Source: Actinomycetota bacterium
GTDB taxonomy: Bacteria; Actinomycetota; Actinomycetes; Streptosporangiales; Streptosporangiaceae
Assembly: GCA_021324595.1 (NCBI GenBank)
Contig: JAJPIV010000091.1
Location: 1-55,852, forward strand
Direction of reading: 5' to 3'
Length of the DNA stretch: 55,852 bases
Shown: positions 1 to 41,531 of the stretch, in pieces
Numbering within the stretch: position 1 is the first letter of the stretch
Layout of the letters: every line of letters begins with the position of its first letter
Program-made: the position numbers and the translations under genes
The notes under the pieces: model-generated
The model's input: only the letters and a program-made list of their open reading frames with translations
Database searches by the model: none
What the model was told of the DNA's origin: nothing

Positions 1-198
1 CTGCTCGACGTCCTGGTCGGCGACCCGCCGCTGTTCCCCCGGCACGAGGAGGTCGAGCTGTGCTGGCGGATCCTCGACCCGGTGGAGGAGTTCTGGGCCG
101 CCGGCGGCCGGCCCGAGCAGTACCCGGCCGGCACGGCCGGCCCGGCCGGCGCGGACGCCCTGATGGCCAGGGACGGCCGGGCCTGGCGGCGGCTGTGA
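1..198 (+). CDS. zwf: Glucose-6-phosphate dehydrogenase, C-terminal fragment
   Basis: Open from base 1 in frame 1 to TGA at 196-198, leaving 65 residues. The tail contains GDPPLFPRHEEVEL, then WRILDPVEEFW, and ends MARDGRAWRRL, the usual C-terminus of actinobacterial NADP-dependent glucose-6-phosphate dehydrogenases. The enzyme starts the oxidative pentose phosphate pathway in the cytoplasm. The next gene is opcA, its assembly and activity factor, followed by the next enzyme, pgl, so this is the end of a zwf-opcA-pgl operon. The NADP-binding and catalytic parts lie outside the window. The call rests on the C-terminal signature plus context. Confidence 0.9.
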   Translation: MLDVLVGDPPLFPRHEEVELCWRILDPVEEFWAAGGRPEQYPAGTAGPAGADALMARDGRAWRRL

Positions 199-250
199 GC
201 GGCCGGGCGCGCCGCGGGCGCGGGAGCGGGCACGGCGGGGAGGGGACCGG

Positions 251-1165
251 GTGCGGATCGACCTGACGGACACCACGGCGGCCGCCGTGCGGACCGCGCT
301 GATGCGCTCCAGCCAGCAGCTGGGCGGGCTGACCACGGGCGTGGTGCTCAACCTGGTCATCGTGACCGACGAGGCCCGCCAGCACGACGCGCTCCGCGCG
401 GCCAGCCAGGCCGGCCGGGAGCACCCGTGCCGGGTGCTCGGCGTGATCGCCCGGGACGGCCGGTCAGAGTCCCGGCTGGATGCCGAGATCACGGTCGGCG
501 AGAACGCCCCGGGCCAGACGGCGGTGCTGCGGCTGCACGGCGAGCTGGCTGAGCACGCGGACTCGGTGGTCATGCCGCTGCTGGTCCCGGACACCCCCGT
601 GGTGTCCTGGTGGCCGGGCCCGGCGCCCGGCGCGCCGGGAGCCGACCCGCTGGGAGTGCTCGCCCAGCGCCGGATCACCGACGCGGCCGCCAGCCCGCAG
701 CCCCTCCGAGCGCTGCGCGACCTGGCCGCCGGGTACCGGCCGGGAGACACCGACCTGTCCTGGGCGCGGACCACCCCGTGGCGGTCGCTGCTGGCCGCGG
801 CGCTCGACCGGCCGCGCGGGCCGGTGCGCGCGGCGACCGTGACCGCCGAGCCGGGCAATCCGAGCGCCGAGCTAATGGCCGCGTGGCTGGAGGGCCGGCT
901 GCGCGTGCCGGTTCGCCGCGACGCGTCCGGCGGGCCGGGGCTCACCTGCGTCGCCTTCCACGCCCGAGACGGCGACATCTCCATCAGCCGCCCGGACGGC
1001 CGGAACGCCACGCTGTCCACGCCCGGCGAGCCTGACCGCCACGTCGCGCTGCACCGCAGGGAGACCGCCGACCTGCTCGCCGAGGAGCTGCGCAGGCTCG
1101 ACCCCGACGAGGTGTACGGTGAGGCGCTGGCCGCCGCTGCGGCCCGGCCGGCGGAGCAGTCCTGA
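251..1165 (+). CDS. opcA: Glucose-6-phosphate dehydrogenase assembly protein OpcA
   Basis: A 304-residue protein starting at GTG 251 (MRIDLTDTT), preceded by a purine-rich stretch (ggggagggg) about 5 nt upstream. Recognisable OpcA features are the early LNLVIVTD segment, HPCRVLGVI near residue 60 and VMPLLVPDTPVVSWWPG near residue 112. In actinobacteria and cyanobacteria OpcA promotes oligomerisation and activity of G6PDH, and it almost always follows zwf, as here. It is cytoplasmic with no signal peptide. The end overlaps the longest possible reading frame of pgl, consistent with translational coupling. Confidence 0.93.
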   Translation: MRIDLTDTTAAAVRTALMRSSQQLGGLTTGVVLNLVIVTDEARQHDALRAASQAGREHPCRVLGVIARDGRSESRLDAEITVGENAPGQTAVLRLHGELAEHADSVVMPLLVPDTPVVSWWPGPAPGAPGADPLGVLAQRRITDAAASPQPLRALRDLAAGYRPGDTDLSWARTTPWRSLLAAALDRPRGPVRAATVTAEPGNPSAELMAAWLEGRLRVPVRRDASGGPGLTCVAFHARDGDISISRPDGRNATLSTPGEPDRHVALHRRETADLLAEELRRLDPDEVYGEALAAAAARPAEQS

Positions 1166-1967
1166 GCCGAGGAGGGCAGCACCCATCACGGTCCCGCAGA
1201 TCCTCATCCACCGCGACGGCGAGCTGCTGGCTAAGGCGGTCGCCGCCCGCCTGGTGACCAGGCTGGTCGACGCGGTCGCCGCCAAGGGCCGCGCCGCGCT
1301 GGTGCTTACCGGCGGCGGCATCGGCACCGCCGTGCTCGCTGAGCTCGCCGCCGCCCCGGCGCGGGACGCCGTCGACTGGCGGCGCGTGGACATCTGGTGG
1401 GGGGACGAGCGGTTCCTGCCCGCGGGCGACCCGGAGCGGAACGAGACCGGGGCCAGGACCGCCCTCCTGGACCACGTCGACGTGCTGCCCGGGCAGATCC
1501 ACCCGATGCCCGGCCCGGACGGCCCGGACGGCCCGGACCCCGAGGCGGCCGCCGAGCGGTACGCCAGGGCGCTGCGCGCCGCCGCGGAGCCGCAGGACCG
1601 GCGCGGCGTTCCCGCGTTCGACGTGCTGCTGCTCGGCATCGGCCCCGACGCCCACGTGGCCTCGCTCTTCCCCGGCATGCCCGCGCTCTACGAGGAGGAG
1701 CGGACCGTCGTCGCGGTGCGCGGGGCGCCCAAGCCCCCGCCGACCCGGCTCACGCTCACGCTGCCGGCGATCACCGCCGCATCCGAGGTCTGGATCCTGG
1801 CCTCGGGCCGGGAGAAGGCCGCCGCGGTCCGCATGGCGCTCTCCGGCGCCGGCCCGATCCAGGTGCCCGCGGCCGCGGCGCGCGGCCGGCAGCAGACTCT
1901 GTTCCTGCTCGACCGCGCCGCCGCCGGGCAGGTCCCGCCCCAGCTCGGCCGGATCGCCTCACCGTGA
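1119..1967 (+). CDS. pgl: 6-phosphogluconolactonase
   Basis: Hydrolyses 6-phosphogluconolactone to 6-phosphogluconate, the second step of the oxidative pentose phosphate pathway. Family features include ILIHRDGELLAKAVAARL at the N-terminus, LTGGGIGTAVL, the WWGDERFLP segment and LLGIGPDAHVASLFPG. Coordinates use the only upstream in-frame ATG/GTG start (GTG 1119), which overlaps opcA by 47 nt and adds a 22-residue Arg/Pro-rich leader unlike the family. Homologues begin MTVPQIL, which here corresponds to ATC at 1185-1187 (I-T-V-P-Q-I-L) with a good gaggagg about 8-10 nt upstream. The real start may therefore be a non-canonical ATC giving 260 residues. Confidence 0.9.
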   Translation: MRRWPPLRPGRRSSPEPRRAAPITVPQILIHRDGELLAKAVAARLVTRLVDAVAAKGRAALVLTGGGIGTAVLAELAAAPARDAVDWRRVDIWWGDERFLPAGDPERNETGARTALLDHVDVLPGQIHPMPGPDGPDGPDPEAAAERYARALRAAAEPQDRRGVPAFDVLLLGIGPDAHVASLFPGMPALYEEERTVVAVRGAPKPPPTRLTLTLPAITAASEVWILASGREKAAAVRMALSGAGPIQVPAAAARGRQQTLFLLDRAAAGQVPPQLGRIASP

Positions 1968-2002
1968 CCGGGCCCTGGGACGGCCGTCCCGGCCCCCGGG
2001 CG

Positions 2003-2030
2003 CCCCTGCGGTCAACCCGCGCCGCAGGGG
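2003..2030 (+). terminator. Stem-loop after pgl
   Basis: A perfect 9-bp GC-rich stem (cccctgcgg at 2003-2011 with ccgcagggg at 2022-2030) with a 10-nt loop, 36 nt after the pgl stop. There is no T-tract, which is common for actinobacterial terminators. It probably closes the zwf-opcA-pgl transcript. The rest of 1968-2332 shows no convincing gene. Confidence 0.5.
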
Positions 2031-2332
2031 ACTCCCGCAAACCGCCGGCTGGCGTTACGCTCAGGACAGGACTTCCGCGTGAGCCTGGTGAGTCCAGCGG
2101 GACACGCCGGATGGCAGGGAGAAAGGCGGGGCATGGCCGGACTGGTCGGGCGTGACCGGATGGCGCCGCCCGTTCCCGGCCGGGCGGTTCCCGAAGGGGA
2201 CACGGGGAGATCGCAAGGGAATGGGGGCACGGGGACCCGGGGGAACGTGATAGGTACCTGCGCAGTTCCTTCCGCCGCCCGCCCGGGCCAGCCACCCCGG
2301 GCAGCGGCGCCTACCTCCCGAGGAGGATGCAC

Positions 2333-2965
2333 GTGAGCACTCCGACTGAGTCACCCGCCGCGCCCGCAGTCGCCGACCCGGCGCCGCTCGGCCTGGCGGG
2401 CTTCGCCCTGACGACGTTCCTGCTCTCCGCGGTCAACGCGCACTGGGCGACCTCATCCAGCGGCCTGGACTGGCTCGGCTACGCGTTCGCCTACGGCGGC
2501 CTGTGCCAGCTCCTCGCCGGCATGTGGGAGTTCAAGAACAAGAACGTGTTCGGCGCGACCGCGTTCTCCACCTACGGCGGCTTCTGGATCGGCTTGTACT
2601 TCTACATCCACGACGTCGTCCTCGGCGGGCTCGCGAAGGGCCTGCAGGTCAACCGCGACCTGGGGTGGATCCTGCTCGCCTTCGCCATCTTCAACACCTA
2701 CATGCTGATCATCAGCACCCAGGTGAACATGGCCGTGTTCCTGGTGTTCCTGACCCTCGAGCTCACCGAGATCTTCCTGTTCATCGGGCAGTTCACGATC
2801 ACGGCCAGCGACGCCGGCACGGACGCGCTGATCAAGGTGGGCGGCGTCATCGGCGTGATCACCGCGCTGGTCGCCTGGTACACCTCGGCGGCCGGGGTGA
2901 TCAACGGCGTCAAGGGCAAGCACGTCTTCCCGGTCGGCAAGCCGCTGTTCGACATGGGCGGCTGA
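2333..2965 (+). CDS. satP: Acetate uptake transporter, GPR1/FUN34/SatP family
   Basis: A 210-residue membrane protein of the SatP/YaaH (AceTr) family, which imports acetate and succinate with protons. The family signature near the N-terminus is ADPAPLGLAGFALTTF (NPAPLGL in most members). About six hydrophobic segments follow, with the conserved FAYGGLCQLLAGMWEF and FSTYGGFWIGLYF in between. GTG 2333 is chosen because aggagg at 2321-2326 lies 6 nt before it; the ATG at 2327 abuts the Shine-Dalgarno and is unlikely. The gene stands alone between the pgl stem-loop and mscS. Confidence 0.92.
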   Translation: MSTPTESPAAPAVADPAPLGLAGFALTTFLLSAVNAHWATSSSGLDWLGYAFAYGGLCQLLAGMWEFKNKNVFGATAFSTYGGFWIGLYFYIHDVVLGGLAKGLQVNRDLGWILLAFAIFNTYMLIISTQVNMAVFLVFLTLELTEIFLFIGQFTITASDAGTDALIKVGGVIGVITALVAWYTSAAGVINGVKGKHVFPVGKPLFDMGG

Positions 2966-3036
2966 GCCGGCGCTCGCCCCAGCCGGCCCTGCGCGCCCGC
3001 CGGGATGCCGGGCGCGCAGGGCCGGTGCCGTCTGGG

Positions 3037-3042
3037 TACCGT
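3037..3042 (+). promoter_or_regulatory. Candidate -10 hexamer for leaderless mscS
   Basis: TACCGT lies exactly 12 nt before GTG 3049, and no Shine-Dalgarno sequence is present. This spacing places the transcription start at or next to the start codon, as in leaderless actinobacterial mRNAs. No clear -35 was found. Confidence 0.4.
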
Positions 3043-3048
3043 GGGTGC

Positions 3049-3840
3049 GTGGCGCGACGCAACCGGCCCCTGCGGGCCATCAGCACCCTGGTGCTCGCGG
3101 TGGCCGCGGCTTCCGCGGTGCACGTCGCCGGGGTTCCGCTCGACGTGACCACCTCGCAGGGATCGGCCCGGATCAACCCGAACGTCTCGATCACCGTCGG
3201 CCATGCGATCACGATCGCCGGGGCAGCCGCGTTCTGCGTGTTCGCGCTGGTCTCCACGTTCGCGTTCGGCCGGTGGGCCCGATCAGTGCTCGAGCGGTTC
3301 ATCGGCCTCGCCTACGGCGACATCGTCCGGTACGTCATGATCCTCGTCGGGCTCAGCGTGGTCATCCTGGCCACGCTGAGCATGCTCGGCTTCCGCGTGG
3401 CCCAGCTCGTGGTCGGCGGCGCCGTCACCGGGGTCCTGTTCACGATCGCGGCGCAGCAGGCGCTGTCGAACCTGTTCGCGGGGATGATGCTGCAATTCGC
3501 CAGGCCGTTCCGGGTCGGCGACCGAGTCCGGATCACCGCGGGCTCGCTCGGCGGGCCCATCGAGGGCACCGTCACTGAGTTCAGCATCAGCTACGTGCGC
3601 ATGGAGACCGACACCGGCCGGGTGCTCCTGCCGAACGCGCAGGTGCTCGCCGCGGCGATCAGCCCCGCCCCGTCATCGACGCAGGTGCCGCCGCCATCGG
3701 CGCAGCGGCCGGCGGCCGGGCCGCCCGGGCCGGCGGCCGGGCGCGATCACGCCCGGCCGCCGGCCGACCCGGCGGATGCTACTGATGGTTCGCCTCGTAC
3801 TTGGCGATCACCTGCGACGGGATCCGGCCGCGATCGCTGA
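3049..3840 (+). CDS. Small mechanosensitive ion channel (MscS family)
   Basis: A 263-residue protein with three hydrophobic segments (about residues 8-28, 46-70 and 90-130). These lead into the MscS pore/beta-domain signature: GGAVTGVLFTIAAQQALSN, LFAGMMLQFARPFRVGDRV, then EGTVTEFSISYVRMETDTGR and LLPNAQVLAA. MscS channels open on membrane tension during hypo-osmotic shock. This is a short form without the large C-terminal vestibule. After about residue 205 the sequence becomes a Pro/Ala-rich low-complexity tail, and its last 62 nt overlap the convergent lsr2 gene. GTG 3049 was chosen from where homology begins. Confidence 0.82.
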   Translation: MARRNRPLRAISTLVLAVAAASAVHVAGVPLDVTTSQGSARINPNVSITVGHAITIAGAAAFCVFALVSTFAFGRWARSVLERFIGLAYGDIVRYVMILVGLSVVILATLSMLGFRVAQLVVGGAVTGVLFTIAAQQALSNLFAGMMLQFARPFRVGDRVRITAGSLGGPIEGTVTEFSISYVRMETDTGRVLLPNAQVLAAAISPAPSSTQVPPPSAQRPAAGPPGPAAGRDHARPPADPADATDGSPRTWRSPATGSGRDR

Positions 3841-7365: not shown

Positions 7366-9543
7366 GTGATGCGCGTCTGGCCGGGCTCGGCCTACCCCCT
7401 CGGGGCCACCTGGGACGGCTCGGGCACCAATTTCGCGATCTTCTCCGAGGTGGCCGAGCTCGTCGAGCTGTGCCTGTTCAGCGAGGACGGCGACGAGACC
7501 CGGGTCGCGCTGTCGGAGGTAGACGGCTTCGTCTGGCACTGCTACCTGCCGGACGTCGGTCCCGGCCAGCGGTACGGGTACCGCGTTCACGGGCCCTACG
7601 AGCCACGCCGCGGGCATCGCTGCAATCCCGCCAAGCTCCTCCTGGACCCGTACGGCAAGGCCGTCGACGGCGATGTCCGGTGGGATCCGGCCCTGTACTC
7701 CTACACCCCGGGCGGTGACCCGTCCGTGCTCAACCGCACGGACAGCGCACCGTTCATGCCGAAGAACATCGTCATCAACCCCTACTTCGACTGGGCGGGG
7801 GACCAGCAGCTGCGGACCCCCTACCACGAGACGCTGATCTACGAGGCGCACGTGCGCGGCCTGACGCTGCGCCACCCTCAGGTGCCGCCCGAGCTGCGCG
7901 GCAGCTACGCCGGGCTGGCCTCGCCGCCGGTCATCGACCATCTGCGCCGGCTGGGAGTCACCGCGATCGAGCTGATGCCGGTCCATCAGGCGGTGCCCGA
8001 GCCGTTCCTCGTCGAGCGCGGGCTCACCAACTACTGGGGCTACAACACGATCGGGTTCTTCGCCCCGCACCACGGGTACGCCTCCGCCACCGCCGCGCAC
8101 GGCCAGGTTGCCGAGTTCAAGTCGATGGTCAAGACGCTGCACCAGGCGGGCATCGAGGTCATCCTCGACGTGGTCTACAACCACACCGCCGAGGCCGCCG
8201 AGCTCGGCCCGACGCTGTCCTTCCGCGGCATCGACAACGCCGCGTACTACCGGCTCGCCGACGACGACCCGTCGGTCTACCTCGACTACACCGGCTGCGG
8301 CAACAGCCTGAACGTCCGCCACCCGCACGCGCTCCAGCTCATCATGGACTCGCTGCGGTACTGGATCGAGCAGATGCACGTCGACGGGTTCCGGTTCGAC
8401 CTCGCCTCGGCCCTGGCCAGGGAGCTGCACGACGTGGACCGGCTGTCCGCCTTCCTCGACCTGGTGCAGCAGGACCCGCTGGTCTCCCAGGTCAAGCTCA
8501 TCGCCGAGCCGTGGGACGTCGGCGAGGGCGGCTACCAGGTCGGCCGGTTCCCGCCGCTGTGGACCGAGTGGAACGGCAAGTACCGCGACACGGTTCGCGA
8601 CTACTGGCGCGGCACGCCAGGGCAGCTGCCCGAGCTGGCCTCCCGCCTGACCGGCTCCAGCGACCTGTACGAGACCAGCGCGCGGCGCCCGGTGGCCTCG
8701 GTGAACTTCGTGACCTGCCACGACGGCTTCACCCTCGCCGACCTGGTCAGCTACGACCACAAGCACAACGAGGCGAACGGCGAGGGCAACCGGGACGGCA
8801 CCGACGACAACCGGTCGTGGAACTGCGGCGCGGAAGGGCCGACCGACGACCCGGAGATCCTCGCGCTCCGGCAGCGGCAGGTACGCAACTTCCTGGCCAC
8901 GCTCTTCTTCTCGCAGGGCATCCCGATGCTGCTGGCCGGGGACGAGCTGGGCCGCACCCAGCGCGGCAACAACAACAGCTACTGCCAGGACAACGAGATC
9001 TCCTGGGTGGACTGGGACGCCGCGGCCAAGCACGCCGACTTGACGGACTTCGTCGCGACGCTGTCCGCGCTGCGGCGCGCCCACCCGGTGTTCCGGCGGC
9101 GCAGGTTCTTTTCCGGCCAGGCAGGCGGCTCGGCCGACGGCCAGCGCGACATCGTCTGGCTGGGCCCCTCCGGCGCGGAGATGTCCGACCACGACTGGCA
9201 CGCCGGCCATGCCAAGGCCATCGCGGTCTGCCTCAACGGCGACGCGATCACCGAGCCGGGGCCGCGCGGCGAGCGGATCAGCGACGACGACTTCATCCTG
9301 CTGGTGAACGCCCACGGCGAGCCGGTGACGTTCACGATCCCGCCCACCGTCGGCGCACCCGGCACCACGTGGCGCGTGGTGGTTGACACCGGGCAGGTTC
9401 CGGCGCTCGCGGCCACCGGCGGGACGAGGCTGGCCGTTGCCGGAGGGGCCGTCGGCGGCGATCCCTCCCCAGGCGCACCGCTCACCGTCGGGCTCGCCCC
9501 GCGCTCGCTGGTCCTGCTGCGCGGCGCCCTGGAACCCTCGTGA
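7366..9543 (+). CDS. glgX: Glycogen debranching enzyme GlgX
   Basis: A 725-residue GH13_11 isoamylase-type enzyme that hydrolyses alpha-1,6 branches of phosphorylase-limit glycogen. The N-terminal CBM48-like domain includes PLGATWDGSGTNFAIFSE. Catalytic regions follow in order: DVVYNHTAE near residue 270, GFRFDLAS near 345 with the nucleophile Asp, LIAEPWDVG near 380 with the acid/base Glu, and VTCHDGFTL near 450. LLAGDELGRTQRGNNNSYCQ is typical of GlgX. GTG 7366 and ATG 7369 are adjacent starts with no clear Shine-Dalgarno. The gene is single, with no glycogen or trehalose partners in the window. Confidence 0.95.
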   Translation: MMRVWPGSAYPLGATWDGSGTNFAIFSEVAELVELCLFSEDGDETRVALSEVDGFVWHCYLPDVGPGQRYGYRVHGPYEPRRGHRCNPAKLLLDPYGKAVDGDVRWDPALYSYTPGGDPSVLNRTDSAPFMPKNIVINPYFDWAGDQQLRTPYHETLIYEAHVRGLTLRHPQVPPELRGSYAGLASPPVIDHLRRLGVTAIELMPVHQAVPEPFLVERGLTNYWGYNTIGFFAPHHGYASATAAHGQVAEFKSMVKTLHQAGIEVILDVVYNHTAEAAELGPTLSFRGIDNAAYYRLADDDPSVYLDYTGCGNSLNVRHPHALQLIMDSLRYWIEQMHVDGFRFDLASALARELHDVDRLSAFLDLVQQDPLVSQVKLIAEPWDVGEGGYQVGRFPPLWTEWNGKYRDTVRDYWRGTPGQLPELASRLTGSSDLYETSARRPVASVNFVTCHDGFTLADLVSYDHKHNEANGEGNRDGTDDNRSWNCGAEGPTDDPEILALRQRQVRNFLATLFFSQGIPMLLAGDELGRTQRGNNNSYCQDNEISWVDWDAAAKHADLTDFVATLSALRRAHPVFRRRRFFSGQAGGSADGQRDIVWLGPSGAEMSDHDWHAGHAKAIAVCLNGDAITEPGPRGERISDDDFILLVNAHGEPVTFTIPPTVGAPGTTWRVVVDTGQVPALAATGGTRLAVAGGAVGGDPSPGAPLTVGLAPRSLVLLRGALEPS

Positions 9544-11208: not shown

Positions 11209-11997
11209 TCAGGGCAGCGCCTCCCGGTAACGACAGATCCGCACGAATCCCTCGTAGTCGAGACTGGCGCCACCGACCAGCGCGCCGTCGATGTCGGGCT
11301 GCGCCATGATGGCGGGCATGTTGTCGGGCTTGACGGAGCCCCCGTACAGGATACGCACCGCGGCAGCCGTGCCGGGGCCGTGCCGTTCGGAAATCCGCTC
11401 CCTGATGGCCGCGCACGCCTCCTGAGCGTCCTGCGGGCGGGCCACCTCGCCCGTCCCGATCGCCCACACCGGCTCGTAGGCGATGACGCTGGACGCCACC
11501 TGCGCGGCGTCCAGGCCGTCGAGCCCGCCGTCGAGCTGGCGCAGGATGTGCTCCAGGTGGCGGCCGGCCCGGCGGACCGCGATCGGCTCGCCGACGCACA
11601 GCACTGGCGTCATCTGATGACCGAGGACCGCGCGGGCCTTGGCGTTGATCAGCGCGTCTGCCTCGCCGTGATGCTGCCGCCGCTCGGAGTGGCCGACGAG
11701 CACGTAGCGGCAGTCCAGCTTGGCCAGCATCCGGGCGCTGACCTCCCCCGTGTAGGGGCCGTCGGGGTGCGCCGAGACGTCCTGCGCGCCGTACTGCAGC
11801 CTGAGCTTGTCGCCCAGCACCAGGGACTGCACGCTGCGCAGCGCGGTGAACGGCGGGAGCACCGCGATGTCGGCGGCGTCGAAATCCTTGTCGGTGAGGC
11901 GGAACGCCAGCTGCTGGGTGAGGGCCAGCGCCTCGAAGTGGTTGTTGTGCATCTTCCAGTTGCCCGCGACCAGGGGCTTTCGCCCCCCGCGGCTCAC
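11209..11997 (-). CDS. tpiA: Triosephosphate isomerase
   Basis: A 262-residue TIM-barrel enzyme converting dihydroxyacetone phosphate to glyceraldehyde-3-phosphate. Catalytic residues are visible: Lys in GNWKMHN, His in LVGHSERRQ, Glu in [11 protein letters not shown]. The phosphate-binding [10 protein letters not shown] and ALVGGASL loops follow. GTG 11997 overlaps the pgk stop in a GTGA tetranucleotide, indicating translational coupling. Confidence 0.98.
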
Positions 11998-13202
11998 CGG
12001 CCGTCCCCCAGCGCCTCCAGGCCGGGCAGGGTCTTGCCCTCCAGGTACTCCAGGCTGGCCCCGCCGCCGGTCGAGATGTGCCCGAAGGAGTCCTCGGGGA
12101 AGCCGAGGGCGCGGACGGCGGCGGCGGAGTCCCCCCCGCCGACCACGGTGAACCCGGCGGCCCCGCTGATCGCCCGGGCTACCGCGCGGGTGCCCTCGGC
12201 GAACGCGGGGAACTCGAAGACCCCCATCGGGCCGTTCCAGAAGACCGTCCCGGCATCCGCGAGCTCGGCCGCGAACAGCTGGCCGGTCCGCGGGCCGATG
12301 TCCAGACCCATCCGGTCCGGCGGGAACTGCTCCACCGGGACCACCTCCCAGTCGGCGTCCGGGGCGAACGAGCCCGCGGCGGCCACGTCGACGGGGAGCA
12401 CGATCCGCTTCCCCTCCCGCTCCGCCCGTGCCAGCACCTCGGCGACCTCGCCGATCATCTCGGCCTCCACCATCGAGCGGCCGACGCCCAGGCCCCGTGC
12501 CGCGAGGAACGTGAACGCCATGCCGCCGCCGATCAGGATCCGGTCGGCGGTCCGCAGCAGGCTCGCCACGACACCGATCTTGTCGGAGACCTTGGCGCCG
12601 CCGAGCACGACGACGTACGGGCGCGCCGGGCTCAGCGTGAGCCGGCGCAGCACCGCGAGCTCGGCCTCGACCAGGTGCCCCGCCGCGTGCGGCAGCAGCG
12701 CGGGAACATCGTAGACGCTGGCGTGCCGGCGGTGCAGCGCGCCGAACCCGTCGCCCACGTAGAGGCCGACCAGGCCGGCCAGCGCCGCGGCGAGCCTGCC
12801 GCGCTCGGCATCGTCCCTGGCCGTCTCCGCCGGCTCGAACCGGACGTTCTCCAGCAGGCCGACCTCGCCGTCGGCGAGCGAGCCGGCCAGCCGCCTGGCC
12901 GACTCCCCGGCCACGTCGGCGGCGAGCGGGACCGGCCGCCCGAGGAGCTGGCCCAGGCGCTCGGCGACCGGGCGCAGCGACGGCCCGGCCGCGGCCCGGG
13001 ACGCGAAGTCCTCGCCCCGCGGGCGGCCCAGGTGCGCGCAGATCAGCACCCGGGCGCCCCGCCCGGCCAGGTCGGTGATCGTCGGCATGCTGGCCCGGAT
13101 CCGGCCGTCATCGGTGATCACCGCACCGTCGAGCGGCACATTGAGGTCAGCGCGCAGGAGCACGACGCGCCCGCCGACCGCCAGGTCGGAGATCGACTTC
13201 AC
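11994..13202 (-). CDS. pgk: Phosphoglycerate kinase
   Basis: 402 residues from GTG 13202 ([11 protein letters not shown]). Substrate-binding signatures are [11 protein letters not shown], the [10 protein letters not shown] loop, and [17 protein letters not shown]. The C-terminal nucleotide site is [11 protein letters not shown] and [15 protein letters not shown]. It transfers phosphate from 1,3-bisphosphoglycerate to ADP. The start overlaps the gap stop (GTGA, 13199-13202) and the end overlaps the tpiA start, so gap, pgk and tpiA are translated as a coupled unit. The frame stays open far upstream into gap, but that part is a shadow. Confidence 0.97.
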
Positions 13203-14209
13203 AGGCTGGCCGCCACCATCGCGGTCAGGTCGGCGAGCCGGCTGGAGTAGCCCCACTCGTTGTCGTACCAGCCGACCACCTTGACCTGGTCGCCGGACGC
13301 CATCGTGAGCAGCGAGTCGAACGTGCACGAGTACGGCGTCCCGACGATGTCGGAGGAGACGATCGGGTCGGCGGTGTACTTCAGGTACCCCTTCAGCGGC
13401 CCTTCCGCCGCGGCCGCCGCGTAGGCCTCGTTCACCTCCTCGACGCCGGCCTCCCGCTCCAGCTGGACGACCAGGTCGGTGACCGAGCCGTCCATGACCG
13501 GCACCCGCATGGCGATGCCGTCCAGCTTCCCCTTCAGCTCCGGGAGAACCAGCGAGGTCGCCCGGGCGGCACCGGTGGTGGTCGGGATGATGTTCTGCGC
13601 GGCGGCCCTGGCCCGCCGCAGGTCCTTGTGCGCGTAGTCGAGGATGACCTGGTCGTTGGTGTAGGCGTGGATGGTCGTCATCAGGCCCTTGACGATGCCG
13701 AAGCCGTCGAGCAGCACCTTGGCGAGCGGGGCGACGCAGTTGGTCGTGCAAGAGGCGTTCGAGATGATCCGGTGAGCCGACGGGTCGTACCGGCCGTCGT
13801 TCACCCCCATCACGATCGTGATGTCCTCGCCCTTGGCGGGCGCGGAGATGATCACCTTCTTGGCCCCGGCCCGCAGGTGCTTGGCCGCGCCGGCGGCGTC
13901 AGTGAACAAGCCGGTGGACTCGATGACGATGTCGACGCCCAGGTCGCCCCAGGGCAACGCCTGCGGGTCCCGCTCGGCGAGCCAGGCGAGCGTGCGGTCC
14001 CCGACCACGAGGCCGTCACCGGTGGCGCGGACGTCCACGTCGAGCGTGCCGAGCACCGTGTCGTACTTCAGCAGGTGCGCGAACGTCGCGATGTTCCCGA
14101 GGTCGTTGACCGCCACGATCTCGAAGCCAGGTGCCCGGCTCTCATGCACGGCCCGCCAGAAGTTCCTGCCGATCCGGCCGAACCCGTTGATTCCCACCCG
14201 GACGGTCAC
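13199..14209 (-). CDS. gap: Glyceraldehyde-3-phosphate dehydrogenase, type I
   Basis: 336 residues from GTG 14209 ([19 protein letters not shown], the NAD-binding start) with aagggg about 9 nt upstream. The catalytic Cys is in [12 protein letters not shown] near residue 155, and the C-terminal domain ends with [15 protein letters not shown]. It oxidises glyceraldehyde-3-phosphate with NAD and phosphate. It leads the gap-pgk-tpiA-secG operon, separated from whiA by about 200 bp that carry its promoter. Confidence 0.97.
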
Positions 14210-14407
14210 GCGGTGCTCCCCTTCGCCTCGTAGCTGCCTGCCGCGCCGCTGGCCAGCGGCGGGACCGGAGCGCGCAGGCCGCGCCTCACGCGCACGATAA
14301 CATCGTGCCCGCACCGCGCCCAGCGCCAACGTCCCCCGCCGGCATGGCCCAACGTCCCGGCCCAGCGGGCCGTGGGGGCCGGGCTCGGGCGCGCCGACGC
14401 CCGGCGC

Positions 14408-36558: not shown

Positions 36559-36852
36559 TCACGGGGCTGTTCCCTCCGGAAGCGGGTCGCCGGCCCGCTG
36601 CGCGATGAACGCGGCGAGCGAGCCGATGGTGGCCAGGCTGTCCAGGTTCAGGTCCTCATCGGCGACGTCGACGCCGAACCTGCGGTGGACTGACCGCAGC
36701 AGCAGCGCGCCACCGAGCGAGTCAAGGCCGATGCCGTCGCGCAGCAGCGGGGTGTCCGGCGGGGCCCGCAGCGGCCAGGCATCCCCCGTCAGGTCGGCGA
36801 GGATCCGGCGGAGCTCGGCCAGCACGGCGGGCGCCCGCCCGGCCGCGGTCAC
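36559..36852 (-). CDS. Acyl carrier protein-like protein
   Basis: 97 residues from GTG 36852, overlapping the fkbH stop by GTGA. It carries the 4'-phosphopantetheine attachment site DGIGLDSLGGALLLRSVHRR with Ser in LDSL near residue 46, followed by a helix-rich acidic stretch (DVADEDLNLDSLATIG, LAAFIAQR). It is a discrete carrier protein, not the fatty-acid synthase ACP by sequence or context. Next to an FkbH-like protein, such ACPs carry glyceryl or other small acyl groups in polyketide pathways; that is an analogy only. Confidence 0.85.
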   Translation of the reverse strand: MTAAGRAPAVLAELRRILADLTGDAWPLRAPPDTPLLRDGIGLDSLGGALLLRSVHRRFGVDVADEDLNLDSLATIGSLAAFIAQRAGDPLPEGTAP

Positions 36853-37901
36853 CAGGTGCCCCTGGCCCAGCCGGGCAGCTCGGGCAGGGACCCGTCCAGG
36901 CGGCGCGAGTAGGTCGCCATGCGGTGCCCGCCGCCCGCCGCAGGGGCGACGGCAGGCTCGGCGGCCCGGAAGCCCGTCGCGGCGAGCGCGATGCGCAGCG
37001 GCACGTTCCGCGGGCTGACCACGCAGGCCACGCTCACCCGGCCCGCCCCGGCGCTGCGGGCCGCGCGGCAGATCCACGCGAGCAGCGCCTCGATGACGCC
37101 GCGGCCCATCGCCCGGCACGACATCATCAGCAGCTCGACCGACCACTCCCCGGGCGCGGCCGCGGGCAGCGCGACGACGGCGGCGCCGACCAGCCCGTCG
37201 TCGCCGAACCGGTCCCGGAGCCGGACGGCGATCACCCGGCGATCCGGCGCGGCGAGCAGGCGGGCGAGCCGCTCCCGGGAGAGCGCGGCCCCCGCGGAGT
37301 TGAACTGCCGGGTCCGCGCGGACAGCTCGTGCAGCCTGGGCAGGTCGGCCGGGCCGGCCGGGGCGATCGTCACCTGGGTCCGGCAGTGGCGCAGGAACTC
37401 CTCGCGCGAGCCGCCGAACGCCGCCTCCTCCTCCCGCCGCGCCCGGCGCGCGAGGTACAGCTCGCCGCGGCGGCGCGCCTCGTCGGTGATCACCGGCGGG
37501 CTGAACTGCGGCCAGCCAGCCGCCTCCGGCACCTCCTGCGGGGCAAGCACGAGGACGCCGGGATGCGCGTGGGCCACCTCGGCGCGCTCCAGCGGGTCGT
37601 CATCGACGAACGCGACGGCGCCGGGCTCGAGCTCCAGCTCGGCCATGATCTCCGTGACCGCCTGCGACTTGGCCCCCCAGCCGCACGCCGCCGCCGCGAA
37701 CCTGTGCCCGGTCGCCTGCTCGGCGTGCCCGGCGGCCTCGGGCGGGTTCCGGCTCGCGATCGCGTGCAGGATCCCCCGGGCGGCCAGCTCGGCCACGACC
37801 GCGGCCAGCGCGGGAACGGCCGACGGCGGCTTGTCCGGCGATTCCAGGTAGACGCCGTCCAGCAGGGTGTTGTCCAGGTCCCAGACCACGCACTTGATCA
37901 C
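36849..37901 (-). CDS. FkbH-like HAD-superfamily protein with C-terminal GNAT domain
   Basis: 350 residues. The HAD domain (residues 1-130) has VVWDLDNTLLDGVYLE with the DxD motif, ARGILHAIASRNPPEAAGHA, ACGWGAKSQAVTEIMAELEL and AVAFVDDDPLERAEVAHAHP, all FkbH/HAD-IIIC hallmarks. The C-terminal half is GNAT-like (ARTRQFNSAGAALSRERLAR, LLMMSCRAMGRGVIEALLAW). FkbH proteins load and dephosphorylate 1,3-bisphosphoglycerate-derived glyceryl groups onto an ACP. The partner ACP overlaps its stop codon and the upstream GNAT gene overlaps its start. Confidence 0.88.
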   Translation of the reverse strand: MIKCVVWDLDNTLLDGVYLESPDKPPSAVPALAAVVAELAARGILHAIASRNPPEAAGHAEQATGHRFAAAACGWGAKSQAVTEIMAELELEPGAVAFVDDDPLERAEVAHAHPGVLVLAPQEVPEAAGWPQFSPPVITDEARRRGELYLARRARREEEAAFGGSREEFLRHCRTQVTIAPAGPADLPRLHELSARTRQFNSAGAALSRERLARLLAAPDRRVIAVRLRDRFGDDGLVGAAVVALPAAAPGEWSVELLMMSCRAMGRGVIEALLAWICRAARSAGAGRVSVACVVSPRNVPLRIALAATGFRAAEPAVAPAAGGGHRMATYSRRLDGSLPELPGWARGTW

Positions 37902-38419
37902 GGCGGCTGGCCTCCGGGGTCATTCTCCCCGCGAATCCCGCGCGGCCCGGCCGAACGCCATTCCATGGTCAGGTGCGTGGCGCTGAAGCCGAACGCCCGG
38001 TACAGCGCGCGCATGCCGAGATTGGCCGCGTGGACCTTGCCGGTCAGGTGATCGAACCCGGCGGACTCGGCGGCGCGCAGCACCTCGGCCATCAGCAGCT
38101 CGCCGACCGGGCCCCGGTCCGGGCCGTCGGCGACGGCGAGCGAGCGGAAGTTGCCGTAGCGGTCCCCGGTGAGCGAGTTGGTGCGCTCCGTCACCCAGGC
38201 CCAGCCGACGGGCGCCCCCGCCTGGTCCTCGGCGACCAGCGTGATCTCGCCGGGCCGGCCAAGCGCCGCCGCCACCCGGCGGCGGTGGAACGCCTGGTCG
38301 GTGATCGCGTCGGCGCCGAAGGAGGCGCGGGCGATCGCGATCTCGAACCGCGCGATCGCGTCCAGGTCCCGCTCGCCGGCCGGCCTGATCCGGTGCCGGC
38401 CGCCGCCGGCCGCGGTCAC
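37898..38419 (-). CDS. GNAT-family N-acetyltransferase
   Basis: 173 residues from GTG 38419. GNAT motifs are visible: RIRPAGERDLDAIARFEIAI at the N-terminus, EITLVAEDQAGAPVGWAWVT (beta strands), NFRSLAVADGPDRGPVGELL (acetyl-CoA pyrophosphate loop) and KVHAANLGMRALYRAFGF (motif B). Both ends overlap neighbours by GTGA, so it is translated with the BpsA-like protein upstream and the FkbH-like protein downstream. A polyamine or a carrier-bound amine is a plausible acceptor given the upstream gene; this is inference. Confidence 0.85.
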   Translation of the reverse strand: MTAAGGGRHRIRPAGERDLDAIARFEIAIARASFGADAITDQAFHRRRVAAALGRPGEITLVAEDQAGAPVGWAWVTERTNSLTGDRYGNFRSLAVADGPDRGPVGELLMAEVLRAAESAGFDHLTGKVHAANLGMRALYRAFGFSATHLTMEWRSAGPRGIRGENDPGGQPP

Positions 38420-39723
38420 GCCGGCCCTCCGGCCCGTCGCCGGGCCGCCGGGCCGCGCGGGCGCGCCGCGCTCCTGGGCATCGGCCGGAACGTGGTCCCG
38501 CCGCAGGCCGGGCAGCCGGCCGCCCGCAGCTCGGCGATCAGTGCCCAAGCCGGGTCAGGGCTGCCGCCCGCCCGGCCGCCGCCCGCCCGGCCCGGCCCGT
38601 GCCCCCGGCCCGGCCCGCCGCCCCGGCCATCCGGGCCGCTCTCCCGGCCCGGCCCGGCCGCCGGGCCCACGAGGTGAACCGCCCCGCAGCCGGCGCACCG
38701 GTAGGGGCGCGCCCGCGCGGCGCGCGCGTCCGCGGTGTACAGCGGGCCGTCGTAGTCGCCTTCGATCACCGGCCTGGCGGCGGCGGCGCTGCGCAGGTGG
38801 TACAGGTGACTGGTCCCGGCCAGGATCCCGGCGCCCGCGTAGCTGTTGAAGTTCGGCGTGACCGACCGGATCACCAGGCCCAGCCGGGCGATCAGCCGCT
38901 GGGTGGCGAGCGCCTCCTCCGGGCGCCGGGGTCCGAAGGAGAAGAACACGTGACGCCCGGGGCGGGAGTCCAGCACCGAGACGGCGCGGGACAGGAACAG
39001 CTCGGCGCCTGGGACCGTGTACGGGGGGTCGGTGCAGGCCACGTCGAATCCGCCGGCCAGCCCGGCGGGCAGCGGGCGCCTCAGGTCATGCTCGACCAGC
39101 TCGAGCCCGACCCCGCTGCCGGCCGCCTGCTCCGCGATCCAGCGGAGCACGGCGGGGTCGGAGTCGACCACGGCCAGCCGCCGGATGCGGGCGGCCGTGC
39201 CGGTGGCCCTCGCGAAGGCGGCGATCGCGACGGCGATCAGGTCGTCGTCGCCGAGCAGCGCGATCCTGGCTCCGGCCAGCGCCCCCGCCTCGTGCATCCG
39301 CAGCACCCGGTGGATCTTCGTCCGCACGGTGCAGTGCGCCTGGTCCAGATCGGGGCGAGCCCGCGGCGCCCCGGCCGCAGCCCGCTCAAGCTCGGCCGCC
39401 AGCCCGGCGAGCCCGGCGGGGACGCGCTGGCCCAGCCCGCCGCAGGACGGGCAGGTCAGGTCCCCCACGACGGCGCCGGCCAGCGCCTCGCGCGCCCACG
39501 GCGTGAGCCTGGCCGGCCGGGTGGCGTCGACGACCGACCGCCGGCGCAGCTCGTTGCAGATCGCGGCGACGATCGGCACCGGCAGCCCGGTGCTGCGGCT
39601 GACCCGGCTGGCCGGGCTGGTCCCGCTCACCGCGATCGCGCGCAGGACATCGCGAACGCCCGCCTCGCCCTCGGCCAGGCCCACGGCGGCGGCGGCCTCG
39701 GCGATGATCGCGTCCATGTCCAT
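38416..39723 (-). CDS. Bis-aminopropyl spermidine synthase (BpsA/DUF43)-family protein
   Basis: 435 residues from ATG 39723 with gagga about 12 nt upstream. The N-terminal winged helix (ASRVSRSTGLPVPIVAAICN) is followed by a Cys pair (CPSCGGLG). The class I methyltransferase-like core has IALLGDDDLIAVAIAAFAR, IRRLAVVDSDPAVLRWIAEQ and FDVACTDPPYTVPGAELFLS, and FSFGPRRPEEALATQ follows. The C-terminal zinc ribbon (RCAGCGAVHLV ... CPACGGTTF) is split by a Gly/Pro/Arg-rich insert. In thermophiles BpsA adds two aminopropyl groups to spermidine from decarboxylated SAM to make branched polyamines. No speE or speD is in the window. First gene of the coupled operon. Confidence 0.85.
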   Translation of the reverse strand: MDMDAIIAEAAAAVGLAEGEAGVRDVLRAIAVSGTSPASRVSRSTGLPVPIVAAICNELRRRSVVDATRPARLTPWAREALAGAVVGDLTCPSCGGLGQRVPAGLAGLAAELERAAAGAPRARPDLDQAHCTVRTKIHRVLRMHEAGALAGARIALLGDDDLIAVAIAAFARATGTAARIRRLAVVDSDPAVLRWIAEQAAGSGVGLELVEHDLRRPLPAGLAGGFDVACTDPPYTVPGAELFLSRAVSVLDSRPGRHVFFSFGPRRPEEALATQRLIARLGLVIRSVTPNFNSYAGAGILAGTSHLYHLRSAAAARPVIEGDYDGPLYTADARAARARPYRCAGCGAVHLVGPAAGPGRESGPDGRGGGPGRGHGPGRAGGGRAGGSPDPAWALIAELRAAGCPACGGTTFRPMPRSAARPRGPAARRRAGGPA

Positions 39724-39977
39724 CGCAGCCGAATCCTCGCACATCGCGGCGCGGCGCAGATCCGGCGCCTGCCGGAGCCTCGCCCCGGGCGGCCGGTGAT
39801 GCCCTTGTCGCCAGCCTATCCGCGGGCCCTGTTCCGCGGCCACGACCTGGCACCGCCAGTGGCATGCGAGCATCGCGACGGCGCTCGCGCTGCTGGCCGC
39901 GGGCGTCAGGCCGGTGGTGACATCCGGCGCGAGCCGGTGCATGGTAGACAGCGACGCCGACCCCGAGGACGACCGCC

Positions 39978-41531
39978 ATGCCCGACATCCTGACCGCGTA
40001 CGCCCGCAGCCAGCCGGACAAGCCGGCCGTGATCGAGGACCGTGACGGCAGCGTGACCACCTGGACGTACGCCGAGCTCGAGGCGGAGTCGAACCGGCTG
40101 GCGAACGCGCTGCGCGCCCTGGGCGCGGCACCGGGGGCGAAGGTGATCTGGTGCGGGCCGAACTCGCCGCAGGTGGTCGCGGTGGTGAACGCGACCAGGA
40201 AGATCGGCGCGGTGGCGGTCCCGCTCAGCTACCGGCTGACCCCGGCGGAGGCGCGCCACATCATCGAGCACTCCGACGCGGCGTTCGCCTACGTCGACGC
40301 CGACTACGCCGGCCTGCTCGGCGCAGGCTCGCCGGGCGCCGGGCGCATCGGCTCGCTGCGCGAGGTCCTCGTCTACGGCGGGCCGGCGCCCGCCGGGATG
40401 CTCGGCGAGGGCGCCGTCGCGGCCGCGCCCGCCGCGCCGCCCGGCAACCCGCCCAAGGCCGCCGGGACGATGATCTACACGTCGGGGACGACGGGCAGGC
40501 CCAAGGGCGCGGTGCGCCGGGTGCGCGACCAGCCCGCGGCCGCCGCCCTGCTCGGCCTGCTCGGTTATCGCGGCGATGACGTCTACCTCACCTCGGGGCC
40601 GCTCTACCACAGCGGCCCGGGCGCGTTCATGGGCGCGGCGCTCGCGTTCGGCCAGACGATCGTGGTGCAGCGCCGGTTCGACCCGCGGGACTGGCTGCGC
40701 CTGGTCGATGCCTACCAGGTCACCTCGACGTTCTCCGCCCCGGCGCCGATCCGCATGGTGTGCGCCCTGCCCGGGGAGGTCAAGGCCCGTTATGACCGCT
40801 CGTCGATGCGGATCATGCTGGCCAACGCCGCGCCGTGGAGCTTCGCGCTCAAGCAGGCGTACCTCGCCGACTTCCCCGCCGACTCGCTGTGGGAGATCTA
40901 CGGCTCCACCGAGCTGGGCGTCAACTGCGTGCTCGAGCCGAAGGACCAGCTGCGCAAGCCCGGCTCGTGCGGCAGGCCGGCGCCCGGCGTTGAGATCGTC
41001 CTGCTCGGCGAGGACGGCAGCGAGGTCACCGGGACCGGCCCGGATCACCCGGGCGAGCTCTGCGTGCGGTCGGCCGGGGTCTTCGACGAGTACTACAAGC
41101 AGCCGGAGAGCTACGAGGCGGCCCGGCGGGGGGACTATCACACGGTGGGCGACATCGCCTACCGGGACGAGGAGGGCTACTACTACATCTGCGACCGCAA
41201 GGCCGACATGATCATCTCCGGCGGCATGAACGTCTACCCGGCAGAGGTCGAGGCCGCGCTGGAGGAGCACCCCGCGATCTTCGACGTGGCGGTGTTCGGC
41301 ATACCGTCCCCGGAGTGGGGCGAGCTGGTGCATGCCACGGTCGTGCTGGCTCCCGGGGCGTCCCTGTCCCCCGCCGAGATCACCGCGTTCGCCCGCGAAC
41401 GGCTGGCCGGCTACAAGGTGCCGCGGTCGGTGGCGTTCACCAGCGAGCTGCCCCGGACCGGCTCGGGCAAGCTGCTCAAGCGCGAACTGCGCGCGCCCTA
41501 CTGGGCCGGGCACTCCCGGCAGGTCGGCTGA
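39978..41531 (+). CDS. Acyl-CoA synthetase (AMP-forming, ANL superfamily)
   Basis: 517 residues, ATG 39978 with gagga about 9 nt upstream. Motifs: MIYTSGTTGRPKGAVRR (P-loop, near residue 165), LWEIYGSTELGVN (A5), YHTVGDIAYRDEEGYYYICD and DRKADMIISGGMNVYPAEVE (A7-A8 hinge), and RTGSGKLLKREL with the catalytic Lys. It activates a carboxylic acid as adenylate, then CoA thioester. The FadD-like sequence does not define the acid. It is divergent from the BpsA operon across 254 bp, so it might supply acyl groups to that system, but this is unproven. Confidence 0.9.
   Translation: MPDILTAYARSQPDKPAVIEDRDGSVTTWTYAELEAESNRLANALRALGAAPGAKVIWCGPNSPQVVAVVNATRKIGAVAVPLSYRLTPAEARHIIEHSDAAFAYVDADYAGLLGAGSPGAGRIGSLREVLVYGGPAPAGMLGEGAVAAAPAAPPGNPPKAAGTMIYTSGTTGRPKGAVRRVRDQPAAAALLGLLGYRGDDVYLTSGPLYHSGPGAFMGAALAFGQTIVVQRRFDPRDWLRLVDAYQVTSTFSAPAPIRMVCALPGEVKARYDRSSMRIMLANAAPWSFALKQAYLADFPADSLWEIYGSTELGVNCVLEPKDQLRKPGSCGRPAPGVEIVLLGEDGSEVTGTGPDHPGELCVRSAGVFDEYYKQPESYEAARRGDYHTVGDIAYRDEEGYYYICDRKADMIISGGMNVYPAEVEAALEEHPAIFDVAVFGIPSPEWGELVHATVVLAPGASLSPAEITAFARERLAGYKVPRSVAFTSELPRTGSGKLLKRELRAPYWAGHSRQVG

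Follow-up and report, generated by a model that had tools for sequence, protein, structure and literature searches.

Why would a bacterium produce a BpsA-like aminopropyltransferase homologue, a GNAT N-acyltransferase, an FkbH-like protein, and an acyl carrier protein (ACP) as one translationally coupled set? The question is raised by contig JAJPIV010000091.1 of a Streptosporangiaceae genome (assembly GCA_021324595.1), whose 55,852 nucleotides are called the window here and in which four genes, bps, gnat, fkbH, and acp, lie head to tail on the minus strand. An earlier note on this DNA had proposed that the operon might join a carrier-bound acyl unit to an aminopropylated amine. Our comparisons support the four families as one conserved unit, and, judged from sequence, the unit is a conserved and undescribed combination of known enzyme families with a divergent BpsA subfamily. 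We suggest, tentatively and with rather less than even confidence, that the operon encodes the central part of a dedicated small-molecule pathway in which an aminopropylated amine is capped, through the GNAT, by a C3 unit borne by FkbH and the ACP. The four genes are as follows.

39723-38416, minus strand: bps, BpsA-like (PF01861) putative aminopropyltransferase; 435 amino acids, with a winged-helix N-terminus, GDDD, TDPPYT, and NFNSY motifs, and a C-terminal zinc ribbon (C343, C346, C404, C407)
38419-37898, minus strand: gnat, GNAT N-acyltransferase; 173 amino acids, GTG start in a 4-nucleotide overlap; Streptomyces and Nocardioides relatives have it fused to Bps
37901-36849, minus strand: fkbH, TIGR01686 HAD-IIIC protein; 350 amino acids, GTG start, with a weak GNAT-like match at the C-terminus and conserved HAD residues D8, D10, S50, K78, D100, and D101
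36852-36559, minus strand: acp, stand-alone acyl carrier protein; 97 amino acids, GTG start, DSL serine present

Rechecking of the open reading frames (ORFs) returned exactly the operon limits of the earlier note, 36559 to 39723, with the same order and strand, and at all three junctions the stop codon overlaps the next GTG start as a 4-nucleotide GTGA. Each product was assigned by a profile score above the cut-off (given second): Bps by PF01861 (117.5 bits; 27), the GNAT by Acetyltransf_1 (31.5; 20.7), FkbH by TIGR01686 (206.3 bits; 146.65), and the ACP by PP-binding (38.6; 20.8).

Conservation and coupling of the gene set

Among 394 sampled genomes of the class, PF01861 was present in 87 and above the cut-off in 80. 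Surroundings were taken for 60 of the 79 above-cut-off genomes other than the window's own, the remaining 19 being left out, so that module genomes may be missed. In 5 of these 60 loci (four of one genus and one of another), gnat, fkbH, and acp lay 3' of bps. The PF01861 proteins of 55 loci belong to a separate group, 30 to 40% identical to the window Bps over approximately 180 to 280 amino acids; gnat, fkbH, and acp had no match beside any of these 55 genes, which were not counted as module members.

A profile scan of public genomes with Bps alone returned 80 loci, of which 41 (L091 to L131) were treated as the window protein's subfamily. One Streptomyces locus whose bps match is in two pieces (L155) was excluded from the 41, and some contigs were seen twice (L110/L031, L116/L089, L091/L181, and L096/L173, paired by equal length, the last pair also being identical in sequence); counts of 41 use L091 to L131 only. 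With room downstream defined as at least 2.3 kb, 33 of the 41 loci qualified, and the full set of gnat, fkbH, and acp was found in 22 of them: 20 of 21 actinobacterial loci and 2 of 12 from other phyla. The families singled out in the earlier note are thus kept together almost throughout the actinobacterial part of the subfamily, and the recurrence of the same genes when the search starts from Bps alone indicates that the four-gene set is not a chance assembly. The actinobacterial carriers are Streptosporangiaceae and other actinobacterial metagenome-assembled genomes (MAGs), Streptomyces, Crossiella, and Nocardioides; the other two loci, L122 and L125, come from a Bacillota MAG and from a Eubacteriaceae genome, respectively, with acp ahead of fkbH in L125. 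Within the window's genus, bps is present in four of five genomes (G000, which is the window's genome, G395, G396, and G397). The sole actinobacterial locus with room and no module, L113, encodes a Bps that stops short of the zinc ribbon. Partial sets also occur: in L131, from a Spirochaetales MAG, gnat and a weak acp match accompany bps with no fkbH match, and zinc-ribbon Bps proteins of Brevibacillus, Paenibacillus, and Virgibacillus (L126, L128, L129, and L130) have no speD, gnat, fkbH, or acp match in the flanks fetched. A tblastx comparison of synteny gave low-complexity noise only and was discarded.

The coupling seen in the window is likewise shared. Of 29 rows, which include three repeat views of listed contigs, 27 have a start codon allowing the 4-base fkbH/acp overlap (with distances in L111 not interpretable), and bps/gnat and gnat/fkbH overlaps are also frequent among the relatives. 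In addition, Bps and GNAT are a single ORF in L031 to L033, L035, L089, L101 to L106, L108 to L110, L112, and L116, which ties the GNAT directly to Bps.

A BpsA relative with a different C-terminus

The label "BpsA-like" given in the earlier note is upheld by the PF01861 match, by the fold, and by the GDDD, DPP, and NFNxY residues. The structural model of Bps (mean pLDDT, 85.7) matched BpsA chain 5xnc_A with Z 28.5 and a root-mean-square deviation (rmsd) of 2.5 over 232 residues, the first chain beyond BpsA and 2qm3 having Z 19.3. An alignment of 36 rows was built from the window protein and 35 of the 41 subfamily loci, with L105, L107, L108, L112, L113, and L124 left out. In it, G158 to D161 (GDDD), D232, and Y295, the equivalents of Tk-BpsA Asp158 to Asp160, Asp225, and Tyr290, do not vary in any of the 36 rows; the alignment was gapped or had ended at the positions of Tk Glu259 and Tyr316. 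According to PMC12979288, Asp159, Asp160, Asp225, and Tyr290 of Tk-BpsA handle decarboxylated S-adenosylmethionine (dcSAM) or spermidine, and BpsA puts aminopropyl groups onto a short, flexible, acidic C-terminal tail.

It is at this tail that the label needs narrowing. The C-terminus of Bps runs from an LYT stretch into an acidic residue and a four-cysteine zinc ribbon whose C343, C346, C404, and C407 are again invariant in 36 of 36 rows. The acidic tail itself can be seen, as DEE-like endings, in several other aligned PF01861 rows. Because the zinc ribbon replaces the acidic tail, we regard Bps as a relative of BpsA and not as BpsA proper; from its residues, it probably works like BpsA while failing one defining feature.

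The separate PF01861 group mentioned above reads GDHD for GDDD in six aligned rows, which form one clade (SH-aLRT, 100). Genes of this group (L034, L041, L054, and others in L031 to L090, near position 8000 in each) are common in the window's family and in other Actinobacteria and often lie close to gltB-, lgt-, and trpA/trpB-like genes (named by eye).

SpeD beside Bps

A PF02675-type speD lies near bps in 30 of the 41 subfamily loci. Among actinobacteria it is on the opposite strand except in L113 and L115; its regular place is upstream and divergent, and L116 alone has it downstream. Bps and SpeD form a single ORF in a Bacteroidota MAG (L121, 9950-11581) and in the Eubacteriaceae genome (L125, 137-1684). 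A speD that adjoins or is fused to bps supports dcSAM as the donor. Against the NCBIfam model for S-adenosylmethionine decarboxylase (AdoMetDC; cut-off, 75.65), the SpeD part of L125 scored 144.5, the free-standing SpeD of L119 scored 152.5, and that of L131 scored 135.6. Across the class sample, speD was found in 18 of 394 genomes and in 5 of 6 known module carriers (hypergeometric probability, 6e-7, relatedness ignored), and in the five module genomes with speD, the cluster copy is the sole PF02675 gene. The SpeDs of Streptosporangiaceae and of L119 to L121, L125, L127, and L131 retain the Ser, His, and Cys that PMC10407285 names at the corresponding positions of Thermotoga maritima AdoMetDC.

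FkbH, ACP, and phosphopantetheinyl transferase

FkbH residues D8, D10, S50, K78, D100, and D101, which we take to be the HAD catalytic residues, are invariant in 20 of 20 rows, and the phosphopantetheine serine of the ACP is present in 29 of 29 aligned rows. The fetched flanks of 12 of the 41 loci, 11 being Streptomyces-type, include a phosphopantetheinyl transferase (PPTase) gene. With eight FkbHs from other contexts in the tree, a single clade of the module FkbHs is rejected (approximately unbiased [AU] test, p = 0.003). Clade tests on 19 rows, picked after seeing the tree, gave p = 0.0098 without L125 and 0.056, not significant, without L122, and long branches weaken the result. FkbH, or FkbH with the ACP, thus apparently joined Bps-GNAT more than once, as far as the tree allows, and a gene-order accident would not explain a linkage produced by repeated recruitment. 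A further argument from the Cys of the BF1531 CSKN stretch was dropped: the module FkbHs are without it, and so are FkbHs L196, L197, and L199, which are not linked to bps, so no inference was drawn.

Proposed pathway

From the enzyme families and their linkage and fusions, together with the conservation of catalytic residues and the recurrence of SpeD, we infer the following reactions, acceptor, and product. SpeD, encoded beside bps in most relatives, would supply dcSAM, from which Bps would transfer an aminopropyl group to an amine, which could be a diamine, a polyamine, or some other small amine. FkbH would take a C3 unit from 1,3-bisphosphoglycerate and, with dephosphorylation, attach it to the stand-alone ACP as a glyceryl thioester; an Sfp-type PPTase, like the one encoded nearby in Streptomyces, would convert the ACP to its holo form. 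The GNAT would then take this acyl group off the ACP and place it on an amine of the aminopropylated product. The most likely product would be an N-glyceroyl (2,3-dihydroxypropanoyl) conjugate of an aminopropyl-amine or polyamine. The combination of aminopropyl transfer and a carrier-bound acyl unit envisaged in the earlier note has gained weight from the Bps-GNAT fusions, the adjacent or fused SpeD, and the nearby PPTase; its product, its acceptor, and the loading of the ACP are what we infer. It is also possible, if doubtful, that these loci represent a cross-phylum class of carrier-dependent acyl-polyamine metabolites, made by a zinc-ribbon BpsA subfamily that, outside the thermophiles in which BpsA is known, aminopropylates an amine with the help of its own SpeD, after which a fused or coupled GNAT would add the FkbH-loaded C3 unit from the ACP; FkbH would have been recruited to this role independently more than once.

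Evidence against the proposal and alternative explanations

Several observations weigh against the proposed pathway. To begin with the gene set itself, 11 of the 33 loci with room do not have the full set, and in L096 a lipoprotein-like gene on the opposite strand splits bps from gnat. Nor was an acidic, aminopropyl-carrying tail seen in the alignment of the Bps subfamily.

The GNAT could also use plain acetyl-CoA. It would then be a polyamine acetyltransferase of the usual acetyl-CoA-dependent kind, and the C3 unit loaded by FkbH would pass from the ACP to a different acceptor group or to some enzyme not encoded in the cluster, an explanation that we consider unlikely, though not negligible. 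By fold, the GNAT model has DpA, a polyamine acetyltransferase, as its top match (Z 18.5), on a tie with unrelated GNATs, its neighbors by sequence and fold are mostly named acetyltransferases, and L131 has a Bps-GNAT pair with no detected FkbH. However, FkbH and the ACP appear from the gene overlaps to be translationally coupled to the GNAT, FkbH was apparently recruited more than once, and among the neighbor families listed, no further enzyme is common to the Streptosporangiaceae set and the Streptomyces set, although 9 of 13 Streptomyces loci do share a downstream tyrosinase-like gene (named by eye).

Alternatively, the SpeD of the actinobacterial clusters may not be an AdoMetDC. It could be inactive, or an amino acid decarboxylase that makes the acceptor, and Bps would then use S-adenosylmethionine itself (aminocarboxypropyl transfer) or another donor. 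This, too, we judge improbable enough to rank behind the proposed pathway and strong enough to keep in view. Three actinobacterial SpeDs scored 69.3 to 71.4 bits, just below the AdoMetDC equivalog cut-off. In 17 aligned Streptomyces-type SpeDs (L031 to L033, L035, L101 to L112, and L155), the sequence reads SASH, with Tyr for Cys83 and Ala for the Glu before the pyruvoyl Ser, and the SpeD of L113 is also without the catalytic Cys. There is precedent in SpeD homologues that became ornithine or arginine decarboxylases, Actinomycetota included (PMC10407285), and bps-bearing G000 and G397 have no speD match at all. On the other side, the Streptosporangiaceae SpeDs and most of those from the Bacillota side keep Ser, His, and Cys, and the Bps equivalents of the BpsA residues that hold the aminopropyl group of dcSAM are invariant. 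The Streptomyces-type SpeDs are highly conserved despite the loss of Cys83 and are the sole SpeD in the four such genomes checked.

The window's own genome poses a separate difficulty. The earlier note had remarked that the window contains no speD or speE, and this is correct and holds for the whole assembly (96.9% complete); bps-bearing G397 of the same genus (81% complete) likewise had no speD match. In G395 and G396, of the same genus, speD is divergent to bps. PF01564 (speE) was not found in G000 or G395, with a weak match only in G396, and the sole PF02784 match in G000 resembles a diaminopimelate (DAP) decarboxylase (named by eye). The sources of both donor and acceptor are therefore unaccounted for in G000, where the pathway may be incomplete or the donor different. 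With no spermidine synthase in G000 or G395 and a DAP decarboxylase-like protein as the only PF02784 member in G000, spermidine may not be the acceptor, and the identity of the acceptor is the weakest point of the mechanism. The operon of this genome might accordingly be a remnant, non-functional after the loss of a speD still present in G395 and G396, or it might be fed by imported or unassembled components. We think this quite improbable, since the four ORFs are intact, with catalytic residues and overlaps, and approximately 3% of the genome is estimated to be missing.

Least probable is a routine cassette of the methoxymalonyl or tetronate type, with its FkbH and ACP feeding a polyketide synthase (PKS) or nonribosomal peptide synthetase (NRPS) encoded far away and with Bps and GNAT incidental, since, although FkbH with a stand-alone ACP is how such cassettes provide glyceryl-ACP (PMC7489565), the six window genes profiled include no dehydrogenase, O-methyltransferase, or FabH-like enzyme, the window gene list bears out the earlier note in holding no megasynthase-sized ORF (largest, 960 amino acids; none above 1,000), and the bps-gnat linkage recurs across families.

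Neighboring genes

The operon is flanked by the following features.

36408-35224, minus strand: thiolase of the acetyl-CoA C-acyltransferase type, 3' of acp in the window's genus only; probably not core
39724-39977: divergent intergenic region of 254 bp; in G395 and G396 a speD diverges from bps, and the window has none
39978-41531, plus strand: acyl-CoA ligase (AMP-binding), divergent from bps; probably not core

The earlier note had counted the thiolase and the ligase as possible additional parts. The thiolase was rejected as a core part, as strong matches beside acp (82 to 83% identical) occur only in L181, which is the same contig as L091, and in L182; L116 has a 38% match at a distance from acp. 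For the ligase, a role within a sub-lineage can be retained. Its orthologue in L096 (a contig of G397 on which positions 1-3597 span this neighborhood) is 76% identical and lies on the opposite strand approximately 1.1 kb upstream of bps, with a MurT-like ORF (named by eye) between them. None was found in the other loci searched (L091 to L131, L181, L182, and L172 to L174, with L173 the same contig as L096). Since it is near bps in one other same-genus genome only and since G395 and G396 have speD divergent to bps, the ligase is probably at most a sub-lineage extra and not core. The distribution within the genus, with the ligase and no speD match in G000 and G397 and with speD in G395 and G396, together with the gene that splits bps from gnat in L096, slightly lowers our confidence in the proposed pathway and in the cross-phylum class and slightly raises it for a SpeD that is not an AdoMetDC.

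Farther away, tpiA-, pgk-, and gap-like genes (named by eye) lie at positions 11209 to 14314, approximately 22 kb from the operon; their products would make 1,3-bisphosphoglycerate, the putative substrate of FkbH. A plasmid search gave one weak, partial match only.

Significance and comparison with known systems

A combination of aminopropyl transfer with an FkbH-ACP pair was not found in the open-licence PubMed Central (PMC) literature, which was covered mostly as titles and the starts of abstracts and gives no proof of absence; this agrees with the earlier note, whose author knew of no described pathway combining the four families. The Michael laboratory has reportedly done work that may concern bps/speD gene clusters; our literature search did not find such work. 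If the chemistry proposed here is true, it would be an unrecorded link from glycolytic 1,3-bisphosphoglycerate to polyamine-type molecules that needs no PKS or NRPS. Independent of the chemistry, cultured lineages including Streptomyces possess a BpsA relative whose C-terminus differs and which is usually encoded near an AdoMetDC homologue, and the named Streptomyces strains with a Bps-GNAT fusion make the pathway directly testable. Sequenced carriers of the cluster include S. griseoruber and S. humidus. To our knowledge, the genera carrying this Bps subfamily are not known for thermophily.

The closest known enzyme is BpsA, the N4-bis(aminopropyl)spermidine synthase (EC 2.5.1.128) of Thermococcus and Thermus, and PMC12979288 describes branched polyamines as products of thermophiles, with BpsA as the enzyme that makes them. 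Bps shares with BpsA the PF01861 family, the winged helix-turn-helix and Rossmann-type fold, the GDDD, DPP, and NFNxY residues, and often a speD nearby. It differs in reading mostly TDPPYT where BpsA has TDPPET and in being linked or fused to GNAT or SpeD, as well as linked to FkbH-ACP. Known aminopropyl groups in small molecules are those of polyamines and microcin C, with a putative methionine-derived unit in muraymycin-type nucleosides (PMC10491745). The neofunctionalized decarboxylases SpeDA and SpeDC (PMC10407285) resemble the cluster SpeD as SpeD homologues in genomes with an odd complement of polyamine genes, whereas the cluster SpeD sits beside bps-gnat-fkbH-acp, and neither BpsA nor FkbH is mentioned in the main text of that paper. 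DpA (PDB 8A9N/8A9O) shares the GNAT fold (rmsd of 2.1 over 139 residues) at 12% identity, and, unlike DpA, the GNAT of the module is encoded beside an ACP and is coupled, or in some relatives fused, to an aminopropyltransferase-like protein. Finally, the FkbH-ACP pairs already known serve methoxymalonyl and tetronate units (PMC7489565). The window pair resembles them in its above-cut-off FkbH, its HAD residues, and its adjoining stand-alone ACP, and it differs in having none of their partner enzymes among the genes profiled; its partners are instead an aminopropyltransferase-like protein and a GNAT.

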